A stretch of DNA of 64,000 nt from assembly GCF_008641065.1 (NCBI RefSeq), contig NZ_VTRS01000005.1:1-64000 (forward strand), read 5' to 3'. Source of the DNA: Rhabdaerophilum calidifontis (GTDB lineage Bacteria; Pseudomonadota; Alphaproteobacteria; Rhizobiales; Beijerinckiaceae). The position numbers and the translations under genes are program-made. Within the stretch, counting starts at the first letter, position 1; each line of letters starts with the position of its first letter. Below are positions 1,108 to 6,333 of the stretch, in pieces. The notes below the pieces were generated by a model. That model had not been told where the DNA came from and did no database searches. It was given only the letters and a program-made list of their open reading frames with translations.

Positions 1108-2229
1108 TTATCGACCAGTCTCGCGGCCATCGTCGGGGCCGGCGTCGCTGTCCATGACATGAATGCCGTCGGGCATCAACGCGATCGTCACGCGGGCCCC
1201 CGGGCCGATGCCGGTCCGGCACGCGGAGTGCGCCGGCAACGTCATCGCAAGAACCGGTGCATCGGCGCCATCGAGGACGACGGTCATCGACAGGTTTTCG
1301 CTCAACGGGATGAGATCCCGGATCGTCCCGGCAAAGCGATTGGGTGTCGTGTCGGCATGATTGGGATCGGTGCTGCTCAAGAGCACCTGCGATCCAGGGA
1401 TGGCCCAGGCGACATCCGCCCCAGCGGGACGCGTATCGGCGCGCAGGGCCTCGATACGACGACCATTCCAGTCCAGAAACGTGCGCGTGCCGTCATGGCC
1501 GATCACCCGCGCCTCGAACAGATTCCTGAGATCAACCAGCCTTGCGGCCTGCACGCTCGCCGGTCGCGCCAGGACATCGCGCGGCGTTCCGGTCTGGAGG
1601 ATCGTTCCCCGATCGAGAAGGCACATGCGGTTTGCAACGCGAGCCGCTTCATCGAAATCATGCGTGACGACCATGATCGGGATCGGCAAGGCTCGACTGA
1701 GCTCCCGAAGCTCGGTGTAGAGCTTCTGGCGCGTTACCCGATCCACGGCCGAGAAGGGCTCGTCGAGAAGCAGCACATCCGGGTCGCGCGCCAGCGCGCG
1801 CGCAACCGCCACCCGCTGCTGTTGCCCGCCGGAGAGTTCGGCAGGCTTGCGCCCCTCAAAGTCGCCGAGATGGACGAGTTCGAGGAGTTGGAAGCCGCGG
1901 GCAGTCCGTTCGTCACGCGGCAGATGATCAAGCGCGGCCACCACGTTGCCGAGGGCGGTCATGTGCGGGAACAGGGCGTAGTTCTGAAAAACGAACCCGA
2001 CCCGTCGCTTATGCGGCGGCAGATCGATCTTCCGCGCCGTATCCAGCCACGACGTCCCCTTGACGGTCACATGACCCGCGACGGGACGATAGAGACCGGC
2101 GATCGTCCGCAGGATCGTCGATTTTCCACTGCCCGATGGTCCGACGAGGGCGAGCACATCCCCGGCGGAGCAGGACAAGTCGACATCGAGCGGGATCGGC
2201 GCCGCCTGTTTCAGACGAACCGTAAGCAT
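1108..2229 (-). CDS. modC: Molybdate ABC transporter ATP-binding protein ModC
   Basis: This ATPase drives molybdate import through ModB. It has a Walker A motif (GPSGSGKS), the ABC signature LSGGQQQRV, a Walker B (VLLLDEP) and a switch histidine (VVTHD). The C-terminal third resembles the Mop/TOBE regulatory domain that distinguishes ModC from other importer ATPases. The length of 373 residues fits the family. I chose the ATG at 2229, giving MLTVRLKQ, which matches the usual ModC N-terminus and sits 2 nt after the modB stop. ATGs at 2241 and further upstream would overlap modB. It is the last gene of modABC. Confidence 0.93.
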   Translation of the reverse strand: MLTVRLKQAAPIPLDVDLSCSAGDVLALVGPSGSGKSTILRTIAGLYRPVAGHVTVKGTSWLDTARKIDLPPHKRRVGFVFQNYALFPHMTALGNVVAALDHLPRDERTARGFQLLELVHLGDFEGRKPAELSGGQQQRVAVARALARDPDVLLLDEPFSAVDRVTRQKLYTELRELSRALPIPIMVVTHDFDEAARVANRMCLLDRGTILQTGTPRDVLARPASVQAARLVDLRNLFEARVIGHDGTRTFLDWNGRRIEALRADTRPAGADVAWAIPGSQVLLSSTDPNHADTTPNRFAGTIRDLIPLSENLSMTVVLDGADAPVLAMTLPAHSACRTGIGPGARVTIALMPDGIHVMDSDAGPDDGRETGR

Positions 2230-2230
2230 G

Positions 2231-2902
2231 TCAGCCCCCATGACGCCGCCCCACATTGGACGAGAGCCGGTAGGTAAGCCCCAGCACCACGAGCGACATC
2301 ATCAGCAAAGTCGCCGCCATGATGCCGGCACCTTGCGTATCGAAAGCCTGAACGCGGTCGTAAATCGCGATGGCGATCGTCTTGGTCTCGCCCGGAATGG
2401 ACCCGCCGACCATCAGCACCACGCCGAACTCGCCGAGGGTGTGGGCGAATGTCAGCACCAATCCCATCGCGACGCCCGGCCATGCCAGGGGCAGGTCGAT
2501 CCGCAGGAGAACCTGCCACGGCGACAAGCCCGAGACGGCCGCCGCCTCGCGGATTTCAGGGGCAATGGCCTCGAAAGCGCGCTGCATCGGCTGGATCGCG
2601 AAGGGGAGATTCACGATCACCGATGCAAGGACCAGCCCCTCGAACGAGAAGACGAGGTTATGGCCGAAGGTCGCGTTCCAGAACTGGCCGATCGGTGTCG
2701 CGCCGCCGATGCTCACAAGCAGGTAATAGCCGACAACCGTCGGCGGCAGCACCAAAGGCAGCGCGAACGCCGCCTCGACAAAGCCCTTGCCCGGAAATCG
2801 GCTGCAGGCCAGCCAACGCCCGACCAGAAGACCAACGGGCAGGAGGATCGCGAGCGTGACAAGGCCAAGCCGGAGGGAAAGCCAGAGGGCAGTCCAGTCC
2901 AT
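2231..2902 (-). CDS. modB: Molybdate ABC transporter permease ModB
   Basis: The inner-membrane permease of the molybdate importer has 223 residues with about five membrane segments. The cytoplasmic coupling loop reads EAAAVSGLSPWQVLLRIDLP, the EAA motif that contacts the ATPase. The sequence ALPLVLPPTVVGYYLL is typical of ModB. I chose ATG 2902 (MDWTALWLSL) rather than an in-frame upstream start, because it lies 4 nt after the modA stop and removes a charged, non-homologous extension. It is cotranscribed with modA and modC. Confidence 0.93.
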   Translation of the reverse strand: MDWTALWLSLRLGLVTLAILLPVGLLVGRWLACSRFPGKGFVEAAFALPLVLPPTVVGYYLLVSIGGATPIGQFWNATFGHNLVFSFEGLVLASVIVNLPFAIQPMQRAFEAIAPEIREAAAVSGLSPWQVLLRIDLPLAWPGVAMGLVLTFAHTLGEFGVVLMVGGSIPGETKTIAIAIYDRVQAFDTQGAGIMAATLLMMSLVVLGLTYRLSSNVGRRHGG

Positions 2903-2906
2903 CCGA

Positions 2907-3719
2907 TTAGCCTTCTTCCCCCGGCAGCAGAAAGCCATACCGCTTGAGGACGGTGCGCGCGGCCGGCGACTGGATATAGGCATAGAAGGCCCTGGCGGTT
3001 TCGTCCGCGTTCTTCAGAAGCACCATCTGCTGGCGCAAGGGCCTGTGCTTCTCGGCTGGGATCAGGGCATAGGTTCCAAGCCTTCCGATCTGCGGTGCCG
3101 CCGCGAGCGAGAGCGCGAAGATTCCGCCTTGCGTTGAACCGGAGGTCGCGAATTGCGCCGTCTGGCTGACATTCTCACCGAGAACCAGCTTTGGGCGCAC
3201 TGTTTCCAGCAGACCAAAGGACTCCAGCGATTCCTCTGCCGCGCGGCCGTATGGGGCATGTTCGGCATTGGCGATCGCGAATTTGGTGATCCTTCCATCC
3301 GCCAGCGCAGCCTTGAAATCGGTGAATGCCGGATCGGGCGTCCAACTCGCACCGGTGGGCGCGAAGAGCACCACCCTGCCGATCGCGTAGAGGGTGCTGC
3401 GGTCAAGCGTCAGCCCCTTGTCCGCCAGTTCGAAGACAAAGCCCTCGTCGGCCGACAGGAACATCTGGAACGGTGCACCCTGGATGATCTGCGTCTTGAA
3501 GTTGCCCGAGGAGCCGTAGGTCGGAATCACGACCTTCCCTGTCTCGCGCCTGAAATTCGCGACCACTTCATCAAGCGCAAATTTCAGATCAGCGGCTGCG
3601 GCGATGCGAGGCGCATTGTCCTGGGCCTTCGCGGGAGCAAGCGTCACCAAAGCCAGGCCCAGAATGACCTTGGACAGGCGCGCAAGACGATGCAGCTGAG
3701 CGGACAAGTGTGGCGCCAT
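2907..3719 (-). CDS. modA: Molybdate-binding periplasmic protein ModA
   Basis: This periplasmic solute-binding protein captures molybdate (and probably tungstate) for ModBC. It is 270 residues long. The N-terminal stretch after MAPHLSAQLHRLARL is hydrophobic and ends in a signal-peptidase-like APAKAQ. The mature part begins with AAAADLKFALDEV, followed by the YGSSGNF ligand-site segment typical of ModA. The ATG at 3719 was preferred over an in-frame start at 3800, because the latter would read through the ModE operator. The gene lies directly downstream of the ModE box. Confidence 0.93.
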   Translation of the reverse strand: MAPHLSAQLHRLARLSKVILGLALVTLAPAKAQDNAPRIAAAADLKFALDEVVANFRRETGKVVIPTYGSSGNFKTQIIQGAPFQMFLSADEGFVFELADKGLTLDRSTLYAIGRVVLFAPTGASWTPDPAFTDFKAALADGRITKFAIANAEHAPYGRAAEESLESFGLLETVRPKLVLGENVSQTAQFATSGSTQGGIFALSLAAAPQIGRLGTYALIPAEKHRPLRQQMVLLKNADETARAFYAYIQSPAARTVLKRYGFLLPGEEG

Positions 3720-3730
3720 CACCACCTCCA

Positions 3731-3758
3731 AGCGATATAGCCGGTTAACTATATCGTT
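3731..3758 (-). promoter_or_regulatory. ModE-type operator upstream of modA
   Basis: A near-perfect inverted repeat has arms CGATATAG (3733-3740) and CTATATCG (3749-3756) around an 8-nt spacer. The TATAT-rich arms match the known ModE binding pattern, which represses modABC when molybdate is plentiful. The site lies 12 nt or more upstream of the chosen modA start and just after the modE-like stop. Regulation of modABC by the adjacent regulator is inferred. Confidence 0.8.
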
Positions 3759-3796
3759 CTCGGAAACGTATGGCCATCGAGAAATCTGTCCTTGGG

Positions 3797-4147
3797 TCAA
3801 GGGTCCGCCAGTTGCACCAGCGTGGCCAAGGCAGCCGCCGTGGCGGCGGAAGCATCGCGCTCGGCCTGACGATACGCGGCCAGTACGGCTTTGCCGGCCT
3901 CAGTCAGATGAGCGCCGCCGCCCGCCTTCCCACCCTTGACCGAAACGACCAGCGGCTCGCGGAAATAGCCGTTCAACGTGTCGATCAGGTACCATGCCCG
4001 CTTGTAGCTCATACCCATCCGCCGGCCAGCCGCCGCGATGGAGCCGGTTTCCTCGATGCCCTGCAGGAGATCGGCCTTGCCGGGGCCGAACGCAACATCG
4101 GCCTTCAGCCCAATTCGAATGGTCAGTCGCGGAGGGGATGCGCTCAT
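3797..4147 (-). CDS. modE: ModE-like winged-helix regulator (DNA-binding domain only)
   Basis: The 116-residue protein matches the N-terminal LysR-type winged helix of ModE. The segment GSIAAAGRRMGMSYKRAWYLID is the helix-turn-helix region, and GGKAGGGAHLTEAGKAVL is the wing. Full-length ModE carries two C-terminal molybdate-binding domains; here they are absent, so effector sensing must differ or be missing. The start at 4147 (MSASPPRLTIRIGLK) fits homologues better than an in-frame codon at 4183. It precedes the ModE box and modABC on the same strand, so it is likely their repressor. Confidence 0.85.
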   Translation of the reverse strand: MSASPPRLTIRIGLKADVAFGPGKADLLQGIEETGSIAAAGRRMGMSYKRAWYLIDTLNGYFREPLVVSVKGGKAGGGAHLTEAGKAVLAAYRQAERDASAATAAALATLVQLADP

Positions 4148-4219
4148 GATCGCGAGAATGTGCTCGACGCCGGCATCATGCAAGCAATCGCGTTGGCCGG
4201 CGTCCCGCTGACGGAATGG

Positions 4220-4423
4220 TCACGGGAAGCCCGGGTGCCCTCCCGGTTCGCGGGCTTGCTCGTTCTTGCGGTCGCGGCGTGCGGCATCGCGGCAGCGGGT
4301 CGAGCAGGTTTCGATCGTCTCCCAGACGCGTGCCCATTTCCGCCGCCAGGCGAAGGGGCGCGCGCAGATCCGGCAGGTCTTGACCGGAAGATCGGCCTTG
4401 CGGCGCATCCGCGCCATGATCAT
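4220..4423 (-). CDS. DUF2256 small zinc-ribbon-like protein
   Basis: The 67-residue basic protein contains the DUF2256 pattern: LPVKTCRICARPFAWRRKW followed by CSTRC, that is two Cys-x2-3-Cys pairs around a tryptophan-rich core. This suggests a small metal-binding domain, but the biochemical role of the family is not known. Its ATG at 4423 overlaps the stop of the upstream dehydrogenase by 4 nt (ATGA), so the two are probably translated together. A second ATG 6 nt further in is also possible. Confidence 0.8.
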   Translation of the reverse strand: MIMARMRRKADLPVKTCRICARPFAWRRKWARVWETIETCSTRCRDAARRDRKNEQAREPGGHPGFP

Positions 4424-5139
4424 CCCTTGACGCGGAGGGTGGAGCGGCCGCCATCGACGCCGATGACCTGGCCGGTGACCCAGCCCGCGTCGGGTGAAAG
4501 CAGGAAGGCGGCGAAGGCCGCGATCTCTTCCGGCGTTCCGAGGCGCTGGAGCGGGTGCAGCTGCGCGATGGCCTGCGCCATCGGCTCGGAGGCGAGGAGA
4601 GGGGCGGCGAGCGCGGTGCGGGTCAGCGAGGGCGCGAGCGCGTTGACGCGGATCCGCGGCGCGAATTCGGCGGCAAGCGCCCGGACCAGGCCATCGACGG
4701 CGCCCTTGGCCATCGCGACCGAGCCGTGCGCGGCGAAGCCCTGCGCCATGGCGACGGTCGAGAAGAGCAGGACCGAGGCGTTCTCCGCCTGTTTCAGCGC
4801 CGGCAGCGCCGCTTGCACCGCACGGGCGGCGCCGAGAGCGTTGAGCCGAAAATCCGCCAGGAAATCGGCCTCGGTCAGCCGCGCGAACGGTTTGAGATTG
4901 ATGGAGCCGACGGCATAGACGAGCGCATCGACCGGGCCGGGGGTTTCGGCGGCGACACGCGCGAAGAGATCCGGATCCAGCACGTCGCCGGGGGTCGTGG
5001 TCGCGCCCGTTTCGGCAGCGATCGAACGCAGGCGCTCCGTATCGCGGGCGACAAGATGCAGCGTCGCGCCGCCGCTGGCGAGGCGCCGTGCCAGCGCGCC
5101 GCCGATACCGCCCGAACCGCCATAGATGATCGCCCGCAT
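4420..5139 (-). CDS. Atypical short-chain dehydrogenase (SDR family)
   Basis: The 239-residue Rossmann-fold protein starts with the cofactor loop YGGSGGIGGALARRL and has the SDR landmarks DALVYAVGS and a C-terminal GQVIGVDGG. The usual catalytic YxxxK is altered: the lysine is kept in SVAMAKGA but valine stands where tyrosine is expected. The protein may therefore be a non-canonical reductase or a binding protein. The ATG at 5139 follows a strong AGGAGG site; an open frame further upstream is non-homologous. It overlaps the DUF2256 gene by 4 nt. The substrate cannot be predicted. Confidence 0.85.
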   Translation of the reverse strand: MRAIIYGGSGGIGGALARRLASGGATLHLVARDTERLRSIAAETGATTTPGDVLDPDLFARVAAETPGPVDALVYAVGSINLKPFARLTEADFLADFRLNALGAARAVQAALPALKQAENASVLLFSTVAMAQGFAAHGSVAMAKGAVDGLVRALAAEFAPRIRVNALAPSLTRTALAAPLLASEPMAQAIAQLHPLQRLGTPEEIAAFAAFLLSPDAGWVTGQVIGVDGGRSTLRVKG

Positions 5140-5239: not shown

Positions 5240-6013
5240 TCAGCGCTCCACGAAGGCCTTCTCGATGACGAAGCTGCCGGGATTGTTGCTGGAACCTTCG
5301 ATGAAGCCTTCCGGCTCCAGCAAGGCAACCATGTCCTTGAGCATCGCGGGACTGCCGCAGAGCATCACCCGATCCTCCTGTGAGGAGAGGGGCGGCAGCT
5401 CGCAATCCTCGAAGAGTTGGCCGCTGGTGATGAGATCGGTGATGCGGCCGCGATTGCGGAACGGTTCGCGGGTCACGGTGGGGTAATAGGTGAGCTGCTT
5501 CGCCACCTGCTCGCCGACCAGCGGGTGGTTCGGCAATTCGTTCTGGATCATGTCGCCATAGGCCAGCTCGGCGATCTGGCGCACGCCATGCACGAGCACG
5601 ACATGCGCAAAGCGCGCATAGATGTCCGGATCGCGGATCAGGCTCATGAACGGGGCGAGCCCGGTGCCGGTGCCGACGAGGTAGAGATTGCGGCCGGGCA
5701 GCAGGAAATCCGCAACGAGGGTGCCGGTCGCCTTGCGGCCGACCAGGATCGAATCCCCCGGCGCGATATGCTGGAGGCGCGAGGTCAGCGGACCGTCCGG
5801 CACCTTGATTGAGAGGAATTCGAGCTCCTCCTCGTAATTCGGGCTGGCGACGCTGTAGGCGCGCAGCAGCGGCCGCCCCTCGCCCTCCAGCCCGATCATG
5901 ACGAACTGCCCGTTCTGGAAGCGGAACGCGCTGTTGCGGGTTGTCCGGAAGCTGAAGAGGGTATCGGTCCAGTGATGGATCTGGGTGACGGTTTCGAGAG
6001 TGGTGGCGCTCAT
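5240..6013 (-). CDS. fpr: Ferredoxin-NADP reductase
   Basis: This FAD enzyme exchanges electrons between NADPH and ferredoxin or flavodoxin. The 257-residue length matches bacterial Fpr. The FAD-binding segment RAYSVASPNYEEELEF and the NADP-binding segments VGTGTGLAPFMSL and MLCGSPAML are clear, and the C-terminus FVIEKAFVER is typical of the subclass. The ATG at 6013 (MSATTLETVTQ) was chosen over an in-frame start at 6250, whose extension is low-complexity and crosses the promoter region. It could feed electrons to the sulfite reductase encoded nearby, which is inference from context. Confidence 0.92.
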   Translation of the reverse strand: MSATTLETVTQIHHWTDTLFSFRTTRNSAFRFQNGQFVMIGLEGEGRPLLRAYSVASPNYEEELEFLSIKVPDGPLTSRLQHIAPGDSILVGRKATGTLVADFLLPGRNLYLVGTGTGLAPFMSLIRDPDIYARFAHVVLVHGVRQIAELAYGDMIQNELPNHPLVGEQVAKQLTYYPTVTREPFRNRGRITDLITSGQLFEDCELPPLSSQEDRVMLCGSPAMLKDMVALLEPEGFIEGSSNNPGSFVIEKAFVER

Positions 6014-6333
6014 CGCTCGATCGGGGTCCAGGATGCCGGGCGGATCGCCCGCCGGCTGATGCACACAAGACGCGTCGGAAGCCGGATTGCCGCGCTTCCG
6101 GCGCCTAGAAACCGGCAGAGCGGCCGAAAGGCAAGGGGATGGATCAAAAAGCAAGGGCCTGCTCCCGCGGCACGCCGGCGAAGAACGCAACCGTTCCGGC
6201 AGGCGGGAGCGGAGCAGGCGCTTCTCCCGCAGCGGTGGCGGAGCCTTCAATCATTTGTGGAAAATTTTTCTGATATTGAGTAAATTTAATGGTAATATGC
6301 AGAATAATATTCTGATCTAGTCCGGAGTCCTTG
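6014..6333. other. Divergent control region between fpr and the Lrp-type gene
   Basis: These 320 nt contain no supported gene. The half next to fpr is GC-rich, whereas about 6250-6318 is markedly AT-rich for this genome and holds the Lrp-type operator. This is where the promoter of the regulator gene should be. The start of that gene has a GGAG ribosome site at 6322-6325. Confidence 0.5.
6300..6314. promoter_or_regulatory. Lrp-type operator
   Basis: The 15-nt palindrome CAGAATAATATTCTG has perfect 7-nt arms around one central base. Its complementary strand, CAGAATATTATTCTG, fits the Lrp consensus YAGHAWATTWTDCTR at every position. It lies 20 nt upstream of the start of the Lrp/AsnC gene, so autoregulation is likely. 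An effect on fpr is less certain because that gene starts about 290 nt away. Confidence 0.75.

Follow-up and report, generated by a model that had tools for sequence, protein, structure and literature searches.

The gene considered here lies within a window of 64,000 nucleotides, the whole stretch of DNA that was analysed, and encodes a short-chain dehydrogenase/reductase (SDR) that lacks the catalytic tyrosine. Translation of the frame gives 239 residues and a stop codon, includes AHGSVAMAKGAVDG, and places V141 and K145 at the YxxxK site (Table 1). The preliminary description had read this motif as VxxxK with the cofactor loop and the lysine retained, and the translation bears out both points: the site reads V141-A-M-A-K145, and the glycines of the GGSGGIG loop are present together with K145. 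The Pfam matches are adh_short_C2 (E 4.6e-47) and adh_short (E 1.9e-29). The only tyrosines of the protein are Y6 and Y75, of which Tyr6 stands at the threonine position of the TGxxxGxG-type loop, whose glycines are kept. The fold itself is ordinary for an SDR. The AlphaFold model is a confident SDR fold (pLDDT 96.8, pTM 0.93), and its 50 closest listed matches among solved structures are all SDRs at 25-35% identity, several of them with NADP(H); 6y4d, 6ihi and 5ff9 (31-35% identity) are among the best matches. Measured against a classical SDR, the protein thus has the Rossmann fold with its loop and the Asn and Ser(Thr) residues, and lacks the catalytic Tyr in YxxxK.

Table 1 Features of the SDR locus in the window
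Feature	Position	Strand	Basis
Tyr-less short-chain dehydrogenase/reductase (SDR), 239 aa	4420..5139	-	translation, Pfam; AGGAGGG 5' of ATG 5139
GxxxGxG cofactor loop, residues 7-13 (GGSGGIG)	5101..5121	-	G7 63/63, G10 60/63, G13 62/63
Thr128 codon, catalytic serine position	4756..4758	-	Thr 47, Ser 16 of 63
His138 codon (Lys-7; FabI YX6K tyrosine register)	4726..4728	-	63/63 family; 1/84 Tyr-bearing SDRs
Val141 codon, YxxxK tyrosine position	4717..4719	-	Ile 34, Val 29 of 63
Lys145 codon, YxxxK lysine	4705..4707	-	63/63
DUF2256 gene (PF10013, E 2e-17), small Cys-containing protein	4220..4423	-	Pfam; adjoins SDR stop
Ferredoxin-NADP reductase-like gene, upstream of SDR	5240..6013	-	PF00970/PF00175 (searched on 5240-6025)

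The overlap with the DUF2256 gene that had also been claimed depends on which start codon is used. With the first ATG (4423) the two frames share 4 bases (ATGA), whereas with the alternative ATG at 4417, the third codon, 2 bases separate the genes. Many of the relatives' DUF2256 proteins begin MxxMRxK, implying that this third codon may be the true start. The ferredoxin-NADP reductase-like gene was considered as a functional partner and found unsupported, with no match in the relatives' loci (many of them with flanks of 1.5 kb), and it is probably only a neighbour. Downstream, positions 1108-4183 of the window hold a ModE-like regulator (TIGR00637, below the cut-off) and ORFs that we read by eye as ModA, ModB and ModC.

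Relatives were drawn from GTDB contigs (one scan, 80 of 113 loci kept) and from 385 genomes of the class, 99 of the family and 398 of the phylum. In the 115-SDR alignment of the first rounds, the tyrosine column of YxxxK holds Tyr in 84 rows and Val or Ile in 31, the latter being the window protein together with its closest relatives, and the lysine is kept in all 84 Tyr-bearing SDRs. All 11 own-genome paralogues in this alignment have the Tyr (22 other genome matches were listed, 11 of them outside the alignment). A fuller set of 66 has Tyr in three distant rows (L177-L179), and Ile (34) or Val (29) in the remaining 63. Our working alignment, A2, has 63 members and leaves out the three Tyr-bearing rows, which are 35-36% identical, and L123, a partial match from a disrupted gene. 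Three plasmid relatives (L181-L183) stand outside A2; their motifs, checked separately, show Val at the Tyr site and the equivalent of His138, as in A2. The Asn of the catalytic tetrad (N100), R32, H195 and W220 are each kept in 62 of the 63 members, and position 83 is Lys in 60 and Arg in 2. The preliminary description had proposed an alignment of homologues as a check on whether the substitution is fixed, and it is, as Ile or Val in every member of A2. A tyrosine nearby that takes the same place, which had been named as the case against the reading, was not found, there being no conserved Tyr column near the site. The sole common tyrosine, Y75 (49/63), lies at the NNAG position, and we rejected a takeover by a neighbouring Tyr. 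The 2,4-dienoyl-CoA reductases are SDRs that, like the Tyr-less clade, work without a Tyr at YxxxK, with a relocated tyrosine at Lys-15. An arrangement of this type was likewise rejected, since the corresponding position, 130, is Ala in 62 of 63 members.

Could the valine be an accident, left by a sequencing error or by the decay of a dying SDR? No PF04244 (photolyase-related) gene was found in the genome, so that part of an operon seems to have been lost, and the copy of one relative, in genome G283, is broken mid-gene, as decay would have it. However, the same type of substitution occurs in 63 of 63 members, the frame of the window gene is intact with start and stop, and dN/dS is far below 1. 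Its values of 0.03-0.27 come from a simple Nei-Gojobori count on 14 close pairs of relatives, with the window gene in none, and they show that these relatives are under purifying selection. We therefore rejected error or pseudogene formation as the source of the Val, an explanation that we regard as hardly credible. In the trees, the Tyr-less rows form one side of one branch, with a support of 97 in the quick tree and 100/97 in the careful tree, whose bootstrap was unsettled; the rows had been thinned from 150 to 94, and the tree alignment included the Tyr/Val trait column itself. Besides the phylum of the window, the clade occurs in at least five others (Bacteroidota, Planctomycetota, Verrucomicrobiota, Gemmatimonadota and Myxococcota), and it is old and probably of a single origin.

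What stands near the vacated position is a histidine. His138 precedes the old Tyr position by three residues and Lys145 by seven, and it is invariant in A2 (63/63), which gives the clade the signature H-x2-[IV]-x3-K. Since His occupies this column in only 1 of the 84 Tyr-bearing SDRs of the 115-SDR alignment, the loss of Tyr accompanies an invariant His within this sample. The window's own genome encodes a FabI, L014, which has the YX6K motif and scores 497 bits with NCBIfam PRK06505 (cut-off 446). When the A2 profile was matched to it, H138 fell on the FabI Tyr and the alignment ran gapless to the Lys, although the match was weak (63.9 bits, in a database of one sequence). The preliminary description had left two options, namely use of another residue or a non-catalytic NAD(P)-binding protein. 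The former is favoured because His138 is invariant and aligned with the FabI Tyr, while the latter stays a rival. In the structure-match alignments, two of the best matches, RasADH and noroxomaritidine/norcraugsodine reductase, carry a His at the His138 position in addition to the Tyr, so that a His there does not by itself have to stand in for the Tyr. R32 aligns with the first Arg of GRR in RasADH, an NADPH enzyme, and NADP(H) is thus the likely cofactor of the Tyr-less SDR. In the accessible part of PMC10499049, an SDR with Tyr173/Lys177 has His170 (Tyr-3) among the residues touching docked NADPH, and the reductases described there share >76% identity with the 5FF9 enzyme. The parallel with His170 supports a placement of His138 along the active site; whether His138 takes part in catalysis is a separate matter.

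We counted as carriers the genomes with an SDR match of E <= 1e-40; in the class search the first 7 candidates per genome were scored, so that carriers there are a lower bound. In the family (99 genomes, 30 carriers), DUF2256 was present in 30/30 carriers vs 15/69 other genomes (p 1.7e-14) and PF04244 in 28/30 vs 17/69 (p 1.5e-10), and in the class (385 genomes, at least 24 carriers), the figures were 19/24 vs 82/361 for DUF2256 (p 3.0e-8) and 18/24 vs 92/361 for PF04244 (p 1.5e-6), all by Fisher tests that ignore relatedness, on two sets that share a few genomes. Among the 52 distinct carrier genomes of the family and class, PF04244 was found in 45, within 2 kb of the SDR in 34, and DUF2256 in 47, within 2 kb in 27. 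Of the 45 genomes with both genes, 21 have PF04244 directly downstream of the SDR on the same strand, the matched stretches being <60 bases apart. The full order SDR-DUF2256-PF04244 on one strand was seen in G396, G465, G456 and G420, in G446 and G475, which belong to the window's genus, and at locus L021. A PF04244 search of the window's own genome gave no match; its SDR and DUF2256 genes therefore look like the operon minus its last gene, and one PF00875-type photolyase is encoded elsewhere. The match is absent in 7 of the 52 carriers, the window's genome included, which indicates that the SDR can persist without PF04244. Eight loci (L022-L026, L030, L176 and L182) come from classes other than the window's or from an unknown phylum; one of them (L024) has PF04244 in its flanks, the flanks being 0.6-6 kb long. 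The computations give good support to a functional clade of Tyr-less SDRs that is predicted to bind NADP(H) and has links to DUF2256 and PF04244.

Two further observations concern these partner genes. In the class, PF04244 occurs in 92 of the 101 genomes with DUF2256 vs 18 of the 284 others (p 6e-59), a very strong association, and DUF2256 may act as a partner dedicated to the photolyase-related protein. The broken SDR of G283 (L143:7960-8746) is interrupted at a T-run stretch, with only residues 120-239 matching, and is adjoined by PF04244 and DUF2256 matches; its disruption could be assembly damage or decay.

A position directly before PF04244 in 21 of 45 genomes is what would be expected of a partner protein, and the clade could have become a non-catalytic, NADP(H)-binding redox sensor or scaffold, which would read NADPH/NADP+ or assist the photolyase-related protein, its turnover having been lost with the Tyr. 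The absence of the catalytic Tyr from all 63 members is in line with this, and an invariant His in the pocket would also suit the binding of a ligand without turnover. On the other hand, Asn, Ser/Thr, Lys and several other polar residues are near-invariant, beyond what NADP binding by itself should require, and the SDR persists without PF04244 in the seven carriers mentioned above. We consider a sensor or scaffold the main rival, possible but doubtful.

The wider neighbourhoods of the relatives point to light stress. In the annotated locus of Mesorhizobium terrae (L181), the SDR has as neighbours an NAD(P)/FAD oxidoreductase, DUF1365, a CFA synthase-family protein, fasciclin, MsrP/MsrQ, CIA30, a cryptochrome/photolyase, a ferrochelatase and a photolyase, and several other loci hold at least one of CFA synthase-like, DUF1365, SnoaL, DUF3833 and a second SDR. 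In M. terrae the SDR is separated from the cryptochrome/photolyase gene by the CIA30-domain gene (PF08547, L181:6675-7265), and in L128 and L130 the SDR is separated from PF04244 by a DUF6134 gene. As far as the accessible parts of PMC7074977 and PMC9758184 go, the islands are similar to the light regulons, of the singlet-oxygen and LitR kinds, that these papers describe. The SDR is best read as belonging to a light-stress module, and in several genomes it lies inside light-stress islands. The plasmid search returned three records, of which two annotate the Tyr-less SDR as an ordinary SDR oxidoreductase; in the Methylobacterium record the gene table is empty over the matching stretch.

In Pedobacter arcticus (L022:4301-4999), the SDR start comes 1 base after the end of a GTP cyclohydrolase I gene (folE), which may hint at a pterin substrate. 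This neighbour also bears on another explanation, in which the enzyme would need no replacement acid and would pass hydride to a quinonoid pterin, a flavin or an imine using Lys145 and water. Flavin/biliverdin-type and dihydropteridine-type reductases are parallels for such acid-free hydride transfer, and the PF04244 partner belongs to a flavoprotein family, which would suit it. The same direction is indicated by FolE, FolM and CryB, which are named among the Pseudomonas LitR light-regulated genes or clusters in the accessible part of PMC9758184. However, folE adjoins the SDR at a single locus of those searched, that of the query itself (many flanks being 1.5 kb), and an invariant His138 is left unexplained. 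We think acid-free catalysis unlikely.

Catalysis with His138 in the role of the Tyr is the reading that we favour, at about an even chance. The SDR would transfer hydride from NADPH, and His138, helped by Lys145 and Thr/Ser128, would polarise or protonate the substrate from the place that the Tyr holds in YX6K enoyl reductases. More tentatively, the substrate might be a conjugated molecule that is produced or damaged in the light, such as a flavin-/pterin-like chromophore or an unsaturated carbonyl. A more ambitious version, in which the clade is a distinct SDR family whose general acid moved from Tyr to His (H-x6-K) and which serves as an NADPH-dependent dark partner of PF04244 flavoproteins, for example by making, reducing or repairing the chromophore, seems distinctly unlikely at present.

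The loss of the Tyr is real and ancient, and among the members examined it is fixed. The window protein scores below the cut-off of the named models among its best 25 of 216 NCBIfam matches, the top one being PRK07231 (148.2 vs 215 bits). Annotation as an ordinary SDR conceals that the residue defining SDR chemistry is absent from every member examined and that an invariant His lies nearby. If catalytic, the clade is an example of a rewired SDR active site; if not, light-stress and photolyase genes have in it a conserved partner that is predicted to bind NADP(H). In both cases, the uncharacterised DUF2256-PF04244 neighbourhood gains a third, testable member.

In one open-licence library, where two papers mention DUF2256, we found no paper joining DUF2256 with a short-chain dehydrogenase, and none on a short-chain dehydrogenase lacking the catalytic tyrosine or described as a catalytic-tyrosine pseudoenzyme. 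Among the matches listed for light regulons, photolyase operons and active sites, titles and the beginnings of abstracts do not describe the gene, and the accessible part of a photolyase-operon paper (PMC9649867) mentions neither a dehydrogenase nor an SDR. With classical SDRs (PF13561; RasADH and noroxomaritidine/norcraugsodine reductase), the clade has in common the Rossmann fold, GxxxGxG, the Asn-Ser/Thr-Lys residues and the NADP-type Arg, but these enzymes keep the catalytic Tyr where the clade has Ile or Val throughout. It shares with FabI, a YX6K SDR, a candidate proton donor at Lys-7 rather than Lys-4; the residue there is Tyr in FabI and His in all 63 members, and the overall match to FabI is weak. 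The cut-offs of 12 FabI models (299-477 bits) compare with a best score of 148.2 for the window protein among its best 25 of 216 matches, and FabI models are absent among the 25 commonest of the 44 families matched by the 63 members. A comparable known setting is that of the ChrR/LitR light-stress islands, which, in the accessible parts of PMC7074977 and PMC9758184, contain the SDRs RSP_1087 and PME6630 and have neighbours (CFA synthase-like, DUF1365, SnoaL and photolyases) similar to those at several of the relatives' loci. The second SDR in the relatives' islands has YxxxK in all 6 cases checked, unlike the Tyr-less SDR beside it.
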